Shown here piece by piece: positions 1,248 through 8,104 of a DNA stretch of 10,116 nucleotides. Position 1 is the stretch's first letter, and every line of letters starts with the position of its first letter. The position numbers and the translations under genes are program-made. This DNA is from Candidatus Desantisiibacteriota bacterium. Its GTDB lineage: Bacteria > JACRDZ01. The stretch spans positions 1 through 10,116 of the forward strand of contig JACQWU010000023.1 in NCBI GenBank assembly GCA_016209155.1. The letters are read 5' to 3'. Below the pieces are notes generated by a model, which saw only the letters and a program-made list of their open reading frames with translations, was not told where the DNA came from and searched no databases.

Positions 1248-1739
1248 AGTGATCTATTTATAATAGTAAGCATTTTGTCAACAACTTCATCAGGTGAAAG
1301 CACCGTAGTATCAATTTTCAGGGAAAACCACAGTAGATATGTCTCTGCCTTCCATAACTATTCCGCCGTGTTTACCCATTTCCTGCTGAAGAGCAACAAG
1401 ACGTTTTCTTACACCGTGAATGTCGCATATGGGTGAAGTATTCCGGCTTACAAGCGGAGTACGAATATCTTCTGTAACATTTTTGTTATCTAAAAAAACC
1501 TGCAATTTATCATTTTGCTGTATTAATTTTATATTTGTGTTAAGCGCCAGAGCTGTTATCTCAAGAGTATTATTTAAATCAATATTATGATTCATGACTT
1601 TAAGCGTTATTGCCCTGTACATTGCGCCTGTATCAATATAAAGATAGTTAAGTTTTTTTGCCAGAAGTTTAGCAACAGTACTTTTTCCGCTTCCCACAGT
1701 ACCGTCTATCGCCACAATTAATTTTTTTCGAGAATTCAT
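1244..1739 (-). pseudogene. cmk: Cytidylate kinase, broken by an internal out-of-frame deletion
   Basis: Intact Cmk phosphorylates CMP/dCMP to the diphosphate. The 142-residue frame from ATG 1737-1739 begins MNSRKKLIVAIDG and holds the P-loop GTVGSGKST (13-21), the NMP-site segment YIDTGAMYRA, and GRDISTVVFPEN, where it hits TGA at 1311-1313. Complete enzymes are about 220 residues. Another frame right at that point (1247-1315) reads IDTTVLSPDEVVDKMLTII, the typical Cmk C-terminus. Its stop (1244-1246) overlaps the plsC ATG. About 55-65 codons are therefore missing at the junction near 1311-1316, including the lid and the RDxxDSxR-type CMP-binding region, and the frame is shifted. The piece cannot be an active kinase as it stands. 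It follows the bactofilin gene by 14 bp, with an AAAGGT ribosome site. An assembly deletion is the alternative to a true mutation. Confidence 0.88.
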
Positions 1740-2401: not shown

Positions 2402-2818
2402 ATGTCAAAACTGGTAAGATTTGGTATTTCTTTAGAAAACGAACTTTTATTTAAATTTGATGAAAATATCAAGCGTAAAAAATATACCAACCGTTCTGAA
2501 GCTATCCGTGACTTAATAAGAGAAGATCTTGTTAAGAGAGAATGGGATGAAAATAAAAATGTTGTCGGTGTTATAACACTGGTTTACAATCATCATAAAA
2601 GAGAATTAGTTAATACTCTTATGGATATCCAGCATGATTATCATGATAACATTCTTTCTTCACAGCATCTTCATCTGGATCATGATAATTGTCTGGAAAT
2701 AGTTGCTATTAAAGGAAGAGCAAAACAGATAGGAGAGCTATTCGGAAAATTAAAATCTGCTAAGGGGGTAAAATATGCAGGTTTTACTGAAACAACAACT
2801 GGAAGAGATTTGTCTTAG
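2402..2818 (+). CDS. nikR: Nickel-responsive transcriptional regulator NikR
   Basis: NikR is a ribbon-helix-helix repressor that binds DNA when loaded with nickel and shuts down nickel import. The 138-residue protein has the full family length. The N-terminal DNA-binding part (about 1-45) contains VRFGISLENELL and the helix NRSEAIRDLIRE. The C-terminal ACT-like metal domain (about 53-135) carries the known square-planar nickel ligands: His in IQHDYHD (H78), H89 and H91 in SQHLHL, and C97 in DNCLEI. These line up with E. coli H76, H87, H89 and C95 at a +2 offset. The site GAGG lies five bases before ATG. The gene sits immediately upstream of a nickel importer operon with its own promoter, so local control of nickel uptake is the clear reading. 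Confidence 0.96.
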   Translation: MSKLVRFGISLENELLFKFDENIKRKKYTNRSEAIRDLIREDLVKREWDENKNVVGVITLVYNHHKRELVNTLMDIQHDYHDNILSSQHLHLDHDNCLEIVAIKGRAKQIGELFGKLKSAKGVKYAGFTETTTGRDLS

Positions 2819-2878: not shown

Positions 2879-2925
2879 TTGACATGTACCTGTATCCGTG
2901 TTACTATTTTTAAAATAATAACACG
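2879..2925 (+). promoter_or_regulatory. Nickel operon promoter overlapped by a probable NikR operator
   Basis: TTGACA (2879-2884) and TACTAT (2902-2907) are 17 bases apart. Across the -10 lies the inverted repeat CGTGTTA (2897-2903) N15 TAACACG (2919-2925). Extended inward, GTGTTACTATT (2898-2908) and the reverse complement of 2914-2924 agree at 10 of 11 positions. From memory, NikR operators outside enterobacteria have been described as GTGTTAC-type half-sites with about this spacing. Nearby nikR and the downstream nickel genes make NikR the likely binder. Binding over the -10 fits repression. Confidence 0.75.
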
Positions 2926-3045: not shown

Positions 3046-3837
3046 ATGATAAAACAATTTTTATATTTAGTGGCTTCTATGTTGTTTTTATTCTGCAACT
3101 TAATTTATGCAGCGCATCCGCTTATTACAGATGATACCGGAACACAAGGCAAAAATAAATTTCAAATTGAATTTAATAATGAATTCAGCAATGATAAAAG
3201 TACAGATGGAGGTGTTACTGCAAAAGAAAGTATAAGTGAACAGGTGATAGCAATATCTTATGGACTTAAAGATAATTTAGATATTGTTATTGGTTTGCCG
3301 TATCAATTTGTAAATATTAAGGAAAATGGGTCTAAGATATTAAATAAAGGCGGATTATCTGATATATCCATTGAAAGCAAATGGAGGTTTCATAACATGG
3401 ATACTTTAAGTTTTGCAATAAAACCAGGATTAAGTTTACCGACAGGCGATGAAGAAAAGGGTTTTGGAAATGGTAAAATATCCGGATATCTTGCTTTTAT
3501 TGCTACTAAGGAAATGGAACAAATTCAACTTCATTTTAATATATATTATATGCATAATGAATTTGAGCTTAAAGAAGACAAAGATGTTAATAATAAAGAC
3601 TTGTGGCATTTATCCCTTGCATCACAGGTTGAGATAATTAAAAAATTATCCGGTGTTATGAATGTTGGTATTGAAAAAAATTCTGATAAAACAAAAGATA
3701 CACATCCTGCTTTTATACTAGGTGGAGTAATTTATTCAATCAGTGAAAATCTGGATATAGACTTTGGCTATAAAAGCGGTTTGAATAAAGAAGAAGTCGA
3801 TAGTTCATATCTTGCAGGGCTTGCTATGAGATTTTAA
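3046..3837 (+). CDS. Outer-membrane beta-barrel protein (phenol-degradation MetA/transporter-like family), first gene of nickel operon
   Basis: The 263-residue protein starts with a signal peptide (MIKQFLYLVASMLFLFCNLIYA, cleavage near residue 22-23). The mature start AHPLITDDTGTQGKNKFQIE is a hallmark of the transporter-like outer-membrane family often labelled MetA-pathway of phenol degradation (PF13557-like). The rest alternates polar and hydrophobic residues in strand-like blocks, and the last residue is Phe (GLAMRF), as expected for a barrel inserted by the BAM machinery. AGGAG lies six bases before ATG. The gene directly follows the NikR-type promoter and precedes nikMN by 24 bp. An outer-membrane channel for nickel or a nickel complex is therefore a reasonable inference. 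The phenol label reflects family naming only, and no substrate can be read from the sequence. Confidence 0.82.
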   Translation: MIKQFLYLVASMLFLFCNLIYAAHPLITDDTGTQGKNKFQIEFNNEFSNDKSTDGGVTAKESISEQVIAISYGLKDNLDIVIGLPYQFVNIKENGSKILNKGGLSDISIESKWRFHNMDTLSFAIKPGLSLPTGDEEKGFGNGKISGYLAFIATKEMEQIQLHFNIYYMHNEFELKEDKDVNNKDLWHLSLASQVEIIKKLSGVMNVGIEKNSDKTKDTHPAFILGGVIYSISENLDIDFGYKSGLNKEEVDSSYLAGLAMRF

Positions 3838-3861
3838 ATATTAAATAAAGGAGATTTTTTT

Positions 3862-4899
3862 ATGCATATGGCAGACGCGCTTATTTCACCTGCGGTTGGA
3901 ATAGGCTTTTGGGCAGCTAGTATAAGTGTTATAGCTTTGTGCGCTAATAAATTAAAAAATACATTCAATGATAAAATAATTCCTTTAATGGGGGTTATGG
4001 GAGCTTTCATTTTTGCCGGACAAATGATTAATTTTACTATCCCTGCAACAGGTTCAAGCGGGCATATAGGAGGAGGATTACTGCTTACAATAATTCTCGG
4101 CCCATGGGCGGCATTTATAACTATTTCTTCAGTGCTATTTGTTCAGGCATTATTTTTTGCCGACGGTGGACTGCTTGCGCTGGGCTGTAATATATGGAAT
4201 TTAGGTATTTATCCATGTTTTATTGCTTATCCGTTGATCTATAAATTAATAGCCGGCAATAGCAGTAATAACAAAAATATAATGATTGGTTCAGTTTTAG
4301 GAGTTATCCTCGGGCTGGAGCTTGGAGCCTTCAGCGTTGTTTCAGAAACCGTTCTTTCCGGAATAACTGAACTACCTTTTTTAACTTTTACAGGCATAAT
4401 GCTTCCAATTCACCTGCTTATTGCTTTGGTAGAAGGAACGGTAAAAGGCGCCATAATTATTTATGTTAAAAATATACAGCCTGATTTGTTTTATGCTGAA
4501 AATCACTCAGACAACGCATTTTTAAATCTAAAAAAAGCACTTATATCTATAGGTGTTTTAGCTTTAATTACAGGAGGTATATTTTCATGGTTCGCATCTA
4601 CTCATCCGGATGGGCTGGAGTGGTCTTTGGGAAAAATATCGGGACAGGAAGAACTGCCTCCAAAAGAAACTGAACTCCATAAAAATCTATCCAGACTTCA
4701 GGAAAAAACAGCATTTCTGCCTGATTACAGCTTTGGGAAACAAGAATCCAGGGAGCCTGAAAATGCATCATGGCTGGCTGTTTCAGGCGGAACCAGTGTC
4801 TCCGGAATCATCGGGGGTATATTTTCATTAGGGTTGACTATTTTGATTGGGATTGTGATAAAATTCTTCCGTAAACGTAATTTGGTAAACACACAATAA
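3862..4899 (+). CDS. nikMN: Nickel ECF transporter substrate-binding membrane subunit, NikM-NikN fusion
   Basis: NikM/CbiM proteins are the metal-capturing membrane (S) components of group I ECF importers; NikN is a small auxiliary membrane protein. The 345-residue protein joins both. The CbiM-like part (1-205) begins MHMADALISP. His2, with the amino terminus, and H68 in SSGHIGGG match the ligands known for NikM nickel binding. FADGG (99-103) and LGCNIWNLG are typical. The C-terminal part has a transmembrane helix (229-245), the NikN-type motif PDGLEWS (249-255), a periplasmic loop and a last helix before RKR. The first ATG, not the second one two codons later, is chosen because His2 must be at position 2; AGGAG lies eight bases upstream. 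The NikR context argues for nickel over cobalt. Confidence 0.93.
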   Translation: MHMADALISPAVGIGFWAASISVIALCANKLKNTFNDKIIPLMGVMGAFIFAGQMINFTIPATGSSGHIGGGLLLTIILGPWAAFITISSVLFVQALFFADGGLLALGCNIWNLGIYPCFIAYPLIYKLIAGNSSNNKNIMIGSVLGVILGLELGAFSVVSETVLSGITELPFLTFTGIMLPIHLLIALVEGTVKGAIIIYVKNIQPDLFYAENHSDNAFLNLKKALISIGVLALITGGIFSWFASTHPDGLEWSLGKISGQEELPPKETELHKNLSRLQEKTAFLPDYSFGKQESREPENASWLAVSGGTSVSGIIGGIFSLGLTILIGIVIKFFRKRNLVNTQ

Positions 4900-4911
4900 T
4901 ACAAATACAAC

Positions 4912-4942
4912 AGTAGGGAACGGTTTCAAACCGTTCCCTACT
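4912..4942. repeat. 31-bp perfect palindrome between nikMN and nikQ (REP-like hairpin)
   Basis: AGTAGGGAACGGTTT (4912-4926) and its exact reverse complement (4928-4942) flank a single C. It carries GTAG and CTAC ends like the elements at 450 and 2293. It fills most of the 59-bp gap between two genes of one operon and ends 8 bases before the nikQ ribosome site (GAGG, 4951-4954). In RNA it would form a stem of about 14 bp, which could block 3' exonucleases or modulate nikQ translation. The lack of a following T-run argues against a strong terminator. Confidence 0.8.
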
Positions 4943-4958
4943 ATTGATAAGAGGAAAA

Positions 4959-5771
4959 ATGTCATTTAATCAGTTTGAATTTTTCGATTTAGGGTATCTT
5001 GATTATTTATCATATAAAGATACTTTTATACACCGGATAGATCCCAGAGCCAAACTCATCGTAAGCCTGATATTTATTATCACAGTTATTTCTTTTCCCA
5101 AATATGAAATTTCTTCGCTCTTTATATATTTTTTCTTTCCAATTTTTCTTATTGCTATGGCTGATCTTCCTGCAAAGGTTATTATTAAAAGAATTTTTAT
5201 TGTTTCTCCTTTTGCGCTTATGATTGGCATATTTAATCCGATTATAGATAGAAAAGTTATTATTACTATATATGGATTGGGAATTACCAGCGGCTGGATA
5301 TCTTATTTTTCAATTATAATAAAATTTATCCTTACTGTAAGTACGGGATTTATTCTCATTGCAACAACTTCATTCCCGGGGATTTGTCTTGCTCTTGAAA
5401 AATTAAAAGTACCTAAAGTTTTTGTACTGCAGCTTATGTTTATATATAGATACATATTTGTATTGGGGGAAGAAGTCGTGCGCACGATGAGAGCAAGAGA
5501 GCTGCGTTCATTCGGGAAAAAGGGGTATGAACTAAGTATCGCCGGCAATATACTTGGAACTCTTTTATTAAGAACCATAGATCGTTCTGAACGGATATAT
5601 CAATCTATGTGTTCCCGGGGTTTTACGGGAAATATAAACCTCTCAAAAAAAATTAATTTTACATTAACCGATTTGTTATATACATTGATTTTAAGCGCAA
5701 TGTTTATTGTTTTGAGATTTTTTTCCGGCAGTTATGCGGTGGGAAGGATGCTTTTAGGAAAAGGGAGCTAA
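4959..5771 (+). CDS. nikQ: Nickel ECF transporter transmembrane coupling subunit (EcfT/CbiQ type)
   Basis: The T component couples ATP hydrolysis by NikO to movement of the S component. With start ATG 4959, which has GAGG five bases upstream, the protein has 270 residues, normal for CbiQ/NikQ. A longer frame from TTG 4944 would put the start before the ribosome site and inside the palindrome's edge, so it is rejected. HRIDPRAKL (25-33) is the family signature. About five hydrophobic helices follow (33-48, 50-68, 80-95, 113-135, 240-258). The coupling-helix motifs appear as RARELRSFG (178-186) and SRGFTG (219-224), matching the A-R-x and R-G-x signatures that dock onto the ATPase. The stop lies 2 bp before nikO, consistent with one transcript. 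Confidence 0.93.
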   Translation: MSFNQFEFFDLGYLDYLSYKDTFIHRIDPRAKLIVSLIFIITVISFPKYEISSLFIYFFFPIFLIAMADLPAKVIIKRIFIVSPFALMIGIFNPIIDRKVIITIYGLGITSGWISYFSIIIKFILTVSTGFILIATTSFPGICLALEKLKVPKVFVLQLMFIYRYIFVLGEEVVRTMRARELRSFGKKGYELSIAGNILGTLLLRTIDRSERIYQSMCSRGFTGNINLSKKINFTLTDLLYTLILSAMFIVLRFFSGSYAVGRMLLGKGS

Positions 5772-5773
5772 GC

Positions 5774-6520
5774 ATGAGTCATCATATAATTGAAGCACAG
5801 GATTTATATTTTGTTTATCCTGACGGGACTAAAGCAATTAATGGAATATCTTTTAAAATTATTCATGGCGAATCTGTCGGAATTGTCGGATCAAATGGTG
5901 CGGGAAAATCAACTTTAATTATGCAGATGAACGGCTTTTTTTTACCTACATCCGGATCTTTGAAAATAGGAGCAACTCCGGTTAATGAAAAAACAAAAGT
6001 TGATATCAGACGTCATGTTGGACTTGTGTTTCAAAATCCTGATGATCAATTATTTATGCCTACGGTATTCGATGATATTGCCTTTGGACCATTAAATCTT
6101 GGTTTTTCAAAAGAAGAAGTTGAAAAATGTGTGGATGAATCATTAAAAATGGTTGGTTGTCTGGAACTAAAAGACAGACCTTCTCATCATCTCTCACTGG
6201 GGCAGAAACGCGCAGTTTCGATTGCATGTATTCTATCTATGGGGCCTGATATCCTGGTGATGGACGAACCATCATCATTTCTTGATCACCGTTCGCGCAG
6301 GGATCTTATTAATCTTTTAAAAAAATTTACTCATACAAAAATAATTGTTTCGCATGATCTGGATTTAATTCTGGAAGTTTGTGAAAGGTGTATAATTTTA
6401 AAAGACGGTAAAATCCAGGCGGATGGAAAAGCAAAAGATATTCTTTCAGAAGAAAATATCCTAAAGCAGAATAATCTCGAACTTCCGCTTACTCTGCAAA
6501 AAAATAACATTCTAAAATGA
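5774..6520 (+). CDS. nikO: Nickel ECF transporter ATP-binding protein
   Basis: This is the ATPase of the importer, 248 residues, acting as a dimer on the cytoplasmic face with NikQ. All ABC motifs are present: Walker A GSNGAGKST (39-47), Q-loop VFQNPDDQLF (85-94, the DDQLF form typical of ECF and CbiO ATPases), signature LSLGQ (140-144, Leu in place of the usual first Gly), Walker B ILVMDEP (160-166) with catalytic E165, and switch His194 in VSHD. The C-terminus is short, like other CbiO/NikO proteins without extra domains. A GGGAG site lies in the end of nikQ. The stop overlaps the ATG of the next gene (ATGA), tying the downstream barrel gene into the same unit. Confidence 0.95.
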   Translation: MSHHIIEAQDLYFVYPDGTKAINGISFKIIHGESVGIVGSNGAGKSTLIMQMNGFFLPTSGSLKIGATPVNEKTKVDIRRHVGLVFQNPDDQLFMPTVFDDIAFGPLNLGFSKEEVEKCVDESLKMVGCLELKDRPSHHLSLGQKRAVSIACILSMGPDILVMDEPSSFLDHRSRRDLINLLKKFTHTKIIVSHDLDLILEVCERCIILKDGKIQADGKAKDILSEENILKQNNLELPLTLQKNNILK

Positions 6521-7709
6521 AAATTATAAATATATCAATTAACATATTTATTTCCTTAATAATTTTATCTCTAATTGCAAGTGCAGATGAAATTTCAAAC
6601 CCTGATATCCAATCTGAAAAAATATCAAGAAATGAAATGTCAGGATATTTGGAAGCAGGGAAAAGGTCTACTGCTCTTGATTATGTAGAAGAGGATAGTG
6701 ATGCTGATTATTCTTATACAAATTATCAGTTTAGATTTAAGCAGAATATAGCTTCACGGTTTAGTTATGATTTAAGTTCTTTTCAATATAAAAAAGATTA
6801 TGATGGAAGCGATGTTTTGGATAATGAATCAAAAATTTTTAAAGCCGGCGGATCTTATTATATTAATAAACAAAAAGAAAAATCATTAAAATTTGATATG
6901 AAATTTCAATATAAGGAAAAAAATTATTATAACATTCCGGAAAAAGAATATAACCAGTTAACAGCCCTTCCTTCTTTGAAATTTAAAAAAGAAGATTTCT
7001 ACGCTGTAAGCTTATCTATTGGTTTAAATCGTTATGATTATATAACCGGAGATAAAAATGATCAGTTTAAATATTCCTCCAAATTAGATTTTTACAGATA
7101 TTTCATCGAAAAGAAATTTATGCTGTCAGGGTATGAAGAAGTTGAATTTCTTGATAATAAACAAACAGACCGCGATAGAGTGAAAAATAATCTTATGCTG
7201 GGGCTTATGAATATAACCAATATGATATTAAGACTATCCATAAATTAAATAGCAGATTGAAAACATATTTTAAATATGAATATTTTAAAAAGGATTATAA
7301 TGTTCTTGCCATTGATCATAATGGTTTTTATATTTTGAACGGATATCAGTATGAAATACAAAATAACAGGGATAAAAAATCTTCGCTTGATTTTGATATA
7401 ATGCAAAAAAATGTTAAATATGATAAAAAAACAGAAGATGATTATACAAAAACAGCAGCAAATATAAAATTTAATTACGATCGCAAAAAAAATTGGAAAA
7501 CATCAGTTGGACTGGAAAATAATTTTTATAAATATAATAATAGAAACAATGATAAGAAAAGATATTATGCTAATTTATCCGGAGAAAAAATTTTGCTTAA
7601 TGGTGATTTGACTATATCTATAGATCTTAAATACAGAGTAACAGATAATGAACAAAAACCTGATAACGAGCAGAAAGCTGTAAGGTTTGGGGCAGAGTAT
7701 AAATGGTAA
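6517..7709 (+). pseudogene. Second outer-membrane beta-barrel protein of the nickel operon, split by a one-base frameshift
   Basis: I do not recognise a named family. The first frame (243 codons from ATG 6517, overlapping the nikO stop) starts with a signal peptide (MKIINISINIFISLIILSLIASA, cleavage near 23). It then shows repeated strand-like stretches rich in Tyr, Lys, Asn and Asp (YTNYQFRFKQN, LKFDMKFQYKEKNYY). It stops at 7246-7248. The other frame continues the same pattern from GCT 7203 (AYEYNQYDIKTIHKLNSRLK) through 7709, ending in the aromatic FGAEYKW expected of outer-membrane barrels. Loss of one G in the run at 7200-7203 (five reduced to four) explains the break. Repaired, the protein has about 397 residues. 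It may be a true mutation, a phase-variable run or a sequencing error. As last gene of a NikR-type nickel operon it is a candidate outer-membrane metal channel. The use of A-rich Lys and Asn codons is high even for this window. Confidence 0.72.
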
Positions 7710-7722
7710 TTGGTAACGCTAA

Positions 7723-7765
7723 ATAGGGGGCTATCCAAAAAGTCTTAAATTGGACAGCTCCCTAT
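7723..7765. terminator. Long hairpin between convergent genes, probable bidirectional terminator
   Basis: ATAGGGGGCTATCCAA (7723-7738) pairs with 7750-7765, with one A-C mismatch, one G-T pair and an 11-nt loop. It starts 14 bp after the stop of the barrel gene and ends 10 bp before the stop of the SWIB gene. No clear T-run follows on either strand, so termination efficiency is uncertain. The sequence GGGGCTATCCAAAAAGTC resembles some insertion-sequence ends, but no transposase is nearby. Confidence 0.5.
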
Positions 7766-7774
7766 ATCAAAATC

Positions 7775-8104
7775 TTAGTCTTCGATATTTGCGCTGACAA
7801 CAGCTGCCATCTGCATCATGTCAATTGTCTGACCTTCTTTAAGATTTGTTAAATCAGTAACTTTACCTGATTTACTTGTGGATTTAGTATTTTTGAATAT
7901 TGTAAGTAATTTGGCATCAGCTACAATAAATTTGCCTGCATTTTCCGGTTTCCCATTTGCAGTTTTAGTTTGAAGTTTATTATTTTTGATGTAATCCCAT
8001 AATCTTTTTGTTATTTCTGTTCTGGGAAGCTCATTTGCTCCTAAAAAAGCCGCTAAATCTTTTTTCAATTTTACTTCTTTTTTCAATCCTTTTGCTTCAG
8101 TCAT
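7775..8104 (-). CDS. SWIB/MDM2-domain protein
   Basis: The 109-residue protein is mostly one SWIB domain. The lysine-rich N-terminus (1-16) is followed by DLAAFLGANELPRTEITKRL, then WDYIKNNKLQTK, a loop with KFIVADAKLLTIF (58-70), and a C-terminal tail with a KEGQTIDMMQMAAVV segment. This order (LxxFLG, PRTEIxKxLWxYIKxxxLQ, xADxxLxxIF) is typical of SWIB domains. In eukaryotes these belong to chromatin remodelling subunits. In bacteria they occur as small stand-alone proteins or fused to topoisomerases, and their function is poorly known. AGGAG lies six bases before ATG (8102-8104). No catalytic residues are expected. It lies 89 bp downstream of the lipoprotein gene on the same strand and may share its transcript. 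Confidence 0.9.
   Translation of the reverse strand: MTEAKGLKKEVKLKKDLAAFLGANELPRTEITKRLWDYIKNNKLQTKTANGKPENAGKFIVADAKLLTIFKNTKSTSKSGKVTDLTNLKEGQTIDMMQMAAVVSANIED

Follow-up and report, generated by a model that had tools for sequence, protein, structure and literature searches.

The nickel import locus

The window, a stretch of 10,116 nucleotides, is the entire contig JACQWU010000023.1 (C53) of a 3.1-Mb metagenome-assembled genome of Candidatus Desantisiibacteriota (assembly GCA_016209155.1, here G000; 79% complete). It contains a nickel import unit flanked by genes for two outer-membrane barrel proteins, barrel 1 and barrel 2, the first of which is probably the entry channel of the importer. 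Open reading frames and profile matches give the plus-strand order nikR, NikR box, barrel 1, nikMN, nikQ, nikO and a broken barrel 2 (Table 1). An earlier note on this DNA had placed nikMN, nikQ and nikO between two distinct barrels with signal peptides, the second overlapping the nikO stop codon by ATGA, and had read both as a dedicated outer-membrane route for nickel under NikR control. Gene calls and profiles agree on the arrangement, and the overlap is located at 6517-6520.

The genes for NikM/N, NikQ and NikO together with nikR and a NikR box are those of a NikR-regulated nickel importer of the energy-coupling factor (ECF) type, and the NikR context suggests nickel as the substrate of nikMNQO. 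The intergenic gaps of 24 bp (barrel 1-nikMN), 59 bp (nikMN-nikQ, containing a strong hairpin) and 2 bp (nikQ-nikO) make an operon likely, in which barrel 1, nikMN, nikQ and nikO would be co-transcribed.

NikR control is borne out by the equivalog match of nikR, whose product carries the metal-site motif QHLHLDHDNC, and by the box ahead of barrel 1. At one of 14 half-site positions this box departs from GTGTTAC-N13/14-GTAACAC, the consensus known for delta-proteobacteria (PMC545781), and none of 1000 shuffles of the gap gave a site with two mismatches or fewer. An additional half-site, GTAGCAC, lies at 2845. Promoter-like sites are no more numerous in the region than expected by chance, and it is the overlap with the NikR box that lends plausibility to the one listed. 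As its -10 element lies inside the box, binding of the repressor would cover this element, which fits repression.

The phylum is small, and comparison within it covered three other genomes (G001, G002 and G003). G003 has the order nikR-barrel1-nikMN-nikQ-nikO. G001 shares this order, except that nikMN and nikQ are separated by genes for a TonB receptor, a NikK-like DUF4198 protein, a NikL-like protein and TonB itself (L018 3203-7202). Profile searches of G002 gave neither a nikMN nor a PF13557 match. A NiFe hydrogenase as nickel user is clearly matched in G001 and G003 and only weakly in the 79% complete G000. The pairing of the two barrels is not conserved, since G001 and G003 keep nikR-barrel1-nikMN and have barrel 2 elsewhere.

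Table 1. Features of the nickel import locus, in window coordinates
Feature	Position	Strand	Evidence and remarks
nikR, nickel-responsive repressor	2402..2818	+	NF003381 183.8 bits, cut-off 105 (NCBIfam equivalog); PF08753 and PF01402
Promoter-like site TTGACA-17-TACTAT	2879..2907	+	-10 element inside NikR box
NikR box GTGTTAC-N13-ATAACAC	2898..2924	+	Consensus comparison; nikR-barrel 1 gap
Barrel 1	3046..3837	+	Signal peptide, N-terminal segment AAHPLITDDTGTQGK, 12-strand PF13557/COG4313 barrel, last residue F
nikMN fusion, CbiM/NikM S component and PDGLE (NikN)	3862..4899	+	PF01891 187.6 bits; PF13190 99.6 bits
Near-perfect hairpin	4908..4946		nikMN-nikQ gap
nikQ, ECF T component	4959..5771	+	TIGR02454 150 bits; start set by comparison with L018/L019
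nikO, ECF ATPase	5774..6520	+	ABC_tran above cut-off; top NCBIfam ECF/cobalt ATPase models below their own cut-offs
Barrel 2, N-terminal part	6517..7248	+	Signal peptide; 54-59% to intact G001/G003 relatives; homology stops near 7206
Barrel 2, C-terminal part	7206..7709	+	Other frame, last residue W; about 103 nt absent at junction

Family and fold of barrel 1

Barrel 1 (263 residues) is of a known type, matching PF13557 (Phenol_MetA_deg, the COG4313 channels) with 76.5 bits against a cut-off of 22. The claim that neither barrel is a TonB receptor stands, as the plug-domain and receptor profiles PF07715 and PF00593 match neither of them; the TonB receptor of G001, used as a positive control, matches both. 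An AlphaFold2 model of barrel 1 built from 61 homologues reached a mean predicted local distance difference test (pLDDT) score of 84 and forms a 12-strand barrel, one strand of which is broken into two by DSSP, with an N-terminal segment modelled at low confidence. In structure superposition (Foldseek was also run), residues 21-263 of the model align with chain residues 1-268 of the COG4313 channel 4rl8 of Pseudomonas putida, from 4rl8 residue 1 onwards, with a Z score of 24.2 over 237 residues, and FapF follows with a Z score of 23.9. A sequence-profile search against solved structures in the PDB gave no match at E up to 1. Therefore, the link of barrel 1 to COG4313 rests on Pfam and on the fold.

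The lumen of 4rl8 is plugged by its first 14 residues (PMC4493636). The N-terminal segment of barrel 1 lines up with this plug and carries AAHPLITDDTGTQGK at its position. Among the 61 homologues, H24 is conserved in 60, D29, D30 and H163 in all 61 and H188 in 58. The survey search patterns required the N-terminal motif, so that H163, H188 and others outside the motif are the unbiased residues. A metal site in the plug region is put forward as hypothetical, because this region is modelled with low confidence.

Barrel 1 homologues adjoin importers of three metals

A search with the barrel 1 alignment, run on a single genome for each species, gave 234 confirmed relatives, of which the best 80 were retained together with up to 8 kb of flanking sequence on either side. 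These homologues were picked by barrel similarity alone, ignoring the neighbours. A metal importer directly adjoins the barrel on the same strand in 66 of the 80 (28 nikMNQO, 18 cbiMNQO, 19 feoAB and one hupE), with the barrel upstream in 58 of the 65 ECF and Feo cases; among the 14 others, several end at a contig edge or have an importer a few genes off. By our own estimate, a random gene would have well under 1 chance in 100 of such a neighbour, and the count is therefore far beyond chance.

Regulation follows the metal of the importer. In the nickel class, nikR-barrel1-nikMN-nikQ-nikO is the rule and recurs in Chlorobiota, Nitrospirota and deltaproteobacterial lineages. Of 27 gaps between nikR and the barrel, those of the window and G001 among them, 24 contain a GTRNYAC half-site, often as GTAGCAC-N13-GTGCTAC, a reversed half-site orientation noted previously for one species (PMC545781). 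All 10 cbi loci scanned have a cobalamin riboswitch upstream of the barrel, with its end about 50 bases or less from the barrel match, and 11 of 21 feo loci have a Fur-family gene no more than 2.5 kb upstream. One cobalamin riboswitch and barrel (L047) are directly preceded by a selenocysteine tRNA (7633-7723).

The same assembly can hold barrels for different metals, as in DYJL01 (L020 feo, L034 cbi), JAGVGM01 (L022 feo, L030 nik), CALGPO01 (L037 cbi, L039 feo) and JACQWR01 (L065 cbi, L083 nik). In G001, a second PF13557 barrel adjoins Fur and FeoB and a third is in an apparent polysaccharide-export context. On the barrel tree the metal contexts are interleaved, with 25 changes over all groups, and the idea that barrel identity follows the metal as fixed clades was rejected for this reason.

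A proposed entry route for nickel

Barrel 1 probably serves the nickel importer as its entry channel in the outer membrane, and its subfamily probably does likewise for nickel, cobalt and ferrous iron. The following account of co-transcription, transport, metal form and any role of the N-terminal segment is inferred from the observed homology, predicted fold, gene order and regulator association. In nickel shortage, NikR would leave its box and barrel 1, nikMN, nikQ and nikO would be transcribed together. Barrel 1 would insert into the outer membrane as a 12-strand channel, with the segment AHPLITDDTG, which contains the nearly invariant H24 and the invariant D29 and D30, probably within the lumen. 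Nickel, as an ion or a small complex, would pass to the periplasm without TonB, where NikM would capture it and NikQO would drive its ATP-dependent import; the missing plug domain suggests that passage through the barrel may be passive. In other operons, the same subfamily would serve cobalt and ferrous importers. As a bolder and tentative extension, held at slightly below even, the AHPLITDDTG branch of COG4313 may be a general TonB-independent family of outer-membrane channels for divalent transition metals, in which each of the nickel, cobalt and ferrous importers of a cell has a paralogue of its own and the conserved H24, D29, D30, H163 and H188 form the metal path or gate.

Several observations weigh against the entry-channel role that gene context suggests for barrel 1. 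The conservation of its N-terminal motif is partly built in, as the motif was in the search pattern. The solved COG4313 channel Pput2725 is mostly closed and conducts poorly at low voltage, and the studied members TcpY, SphA and Pput2725 are credited with hydrophobic substrates (PMC4493636). The survey sample is dominated by Nitrospirota and Chlorobiota. In the sampled genomes, the barrel is present at 6 of 17 NikMN loci of at least 46% identity, plus one weak match, which makes barrel 1 a facultative rather than an obligatory partner. The G001 operon holds a TonB receptor besides barrel 1, so that the two routes can coexist. In three Nitrospirota loci (L021, L036 and L043), the barrel 1 homologue is directly followed by a gene of the methyl-accepting chemotaxis type with no importer nearby, a pairing that perhaps serves metal taxis.

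As hydrophobic molecules are the presumed cargo of known COG4313 channels, the main alternative is that barrel 1 passes a metal complex. It would then admit a chelated metal or an amphipathic molecule that binds metal, and not the bare ion, along the lateral or lumen path suggested for this channel family. The fold and the substrates proposed for the family are in favour of this, but the same subfamily goes with importers of nickel, cobalt and ferrous iron, and no recurrent metallophore synthesis genes were seen beside barrel 1 homologues in the survey loci. The inner-membrane importers of these three metals are generally held to take bare ions, which also counts against a chelate, and we regard it as unlikely.

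Somewhat less probable still is that barrel 1 is co-regulated without being an import channel, whether as a FapF-like exporter, an outer-membrane sensor or a part of the envelope made when metal is scarce. The fold of FapF is almost as similar as that of 4rl8, some homologues adjoin chemoreceptor genes and the G001 operon includes a TonB receptor. However, barrel 1 has no counterpart of the N-terminal region ahead of the FapF barrel (the FapF chain range starts at 97-98), no recurrent gene for a secreted substrate was seen beside its homologues and the pairing with importers holds across three metals.

In bacteria with ECF or Feo importers, a few TonB receptors account for most of what is known about the passage of nickel, cobalt and ferrous iron through the outer membrane. 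One barrel subfamily attached to three importers under three metal regulators is a concrete and testable candidate for this step. If it holds, the entry-channel role would assign a physiological function to some members of a large channel family whose present annotation is phenol degradation.

Barrel 2

The dedicated non-TonB route for nickel proposed in the earlier note is well supported for barrel 1, for which order and regulation are conserved in many genomes, and is wider than was proposed; it is not supported for barrel 2, whose relatives stand beside other genes. Barrel 2 very probably does not belong to the nickel system. Its homologues are rare (7 of 386 genomes, the window genome counted), and in the other genomes, both phylum relatives included, none lies beside nik genes. 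A local rearrangement is thus the simplest explanation of the overlap with nikO. The sequence ahead of barrel 2 and of its relatives holds no NikR box clearly better than chance. Near barrel 2, G001 and G003 encode a fibronectin-type III protein of 927 residues, and G001 also has larB there; pilin-like, RND (resistance-nodulation-division) efflux and suf genes are the neighbours elsewhere. That both barrels form one dedicated nickel route, for which the ATGA overlap and the larB gene behind the G001 homologue could be cited, is thus very improbable, given homologues away from nik genes in the other genomes having one, a surface protein of the fibronectin type as a neighbour common to G001 and G003, no NikR box nearby and a broken gene in the window.

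In G001, the larB-like gene (5-aminoimidazole ribonucleotide (AIR) carboxylase domain; L016 12642-13391) follows an intact barrel 2 homologue; larB acts in the synthesis of the nickel-pincer cofactor. The 927-residue protein lies at L016 6212-8995, and its last ~55 residues, a weak dockerin match, recur at about 35-54% identity in many proteins of the phylum and are possibly a sorting signal.

Intact relatives of barrel 2 have about 400-430 residues and a signal peptide, and by eye they appear internally repeated. Those that are complete end in an aromatic residue; the G003 copy is cut short by the end of its contig. Compared with these relatives, the window gene is without about 34 codons plus one base (~103 nt) near 7206, and the frame is shifted as a result. 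The damage is more than a simple frameshift in an otherwise intact protein of 397 residues, and structure prediction from the window sequence alone gave a pLDDT of 36, too low to be of use. That the family is unrecognised is upheld: the intact relatives exceeded the threshold of no library family, with PF10082 BBP2_2 (19.2 bits, cut-off 23.7), DUF2490 (19.5, cut-off 29.8) and autotransporter (15.2, cut-off 26) all below. Profile-profile comparison with barrel 1 (hhalign probability 2.8% over 5 columns) shows the two barrels to be unrelated.

A similar break affects cmk (1260-1739, minus strand), in which about 60 codons are missing after the N-terminal 142 residues and the C-terminal end lies in another frame. 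This is the only cmk found in the assembly, and the copies of the phylum relatives are intact. Two such gaps within 10 kb suggest a possible assembly error.

Other features of the window

Hairpins with GTAGGG/CCCTAC-like ends lie between genes at 4908-4946, about 2283-2330 and 450-505 and resemble interspersed palindromic elements; the first is near perfect and the other two were spotted by eye. An Rfam scan of the window gave no match. A stand-alone SWIB-domain protein is encoded at 7775-8104 on the minus strand; this domain is best known from eukaryotic chromatin factors.

Comparison with known systems

Barrel 1 shares with the COG4313/PF13557 channels Pput2725, SphA and TcpY the 12-strand barrel, the N-terminal segment before strand 1 and a similar length. 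Known members are tied to sphingosine, chlorophenol or unspecified hydrophobic substrates (PMC4493636), whereas the barrel 1 subfamily is tied to nickel, cobalt and ferrous importers and has an N-terminal motif of its own. No report in the open-access literature was found that ties PF13557/COG4313 to nickel, other metals or feoB.

With the NikR-controlled nikMNQO operons (Rodionov 2004, PMC545781) the locus has NikR, the NikR box and the ECF importer in common, but the text on the Geobacter and Desulfovibrio operons mentions no such barrel. TonB-dependent nickel receptors such as FecA3, FrpB4, CntO and NikH (PMC11247825) likewise let nickel enter at the outer membrane; barrel 1, by contrast, has 263 residues and neither a plug domain nor a TonB-receptor match. 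Hypothetical Fur-regulated porins beside feoAB in Geobacter have been proposed to pass ferrous iron without TonB (PMC545781). These belong to PF07396-like and OprB-like families, in contrast to barrel 1, where a single family would serve three metals. The idea of a metal porin independent of TonB is therefore not new (PMC545781); what seems new is the COG4313 subfamily and its extension over three metals.

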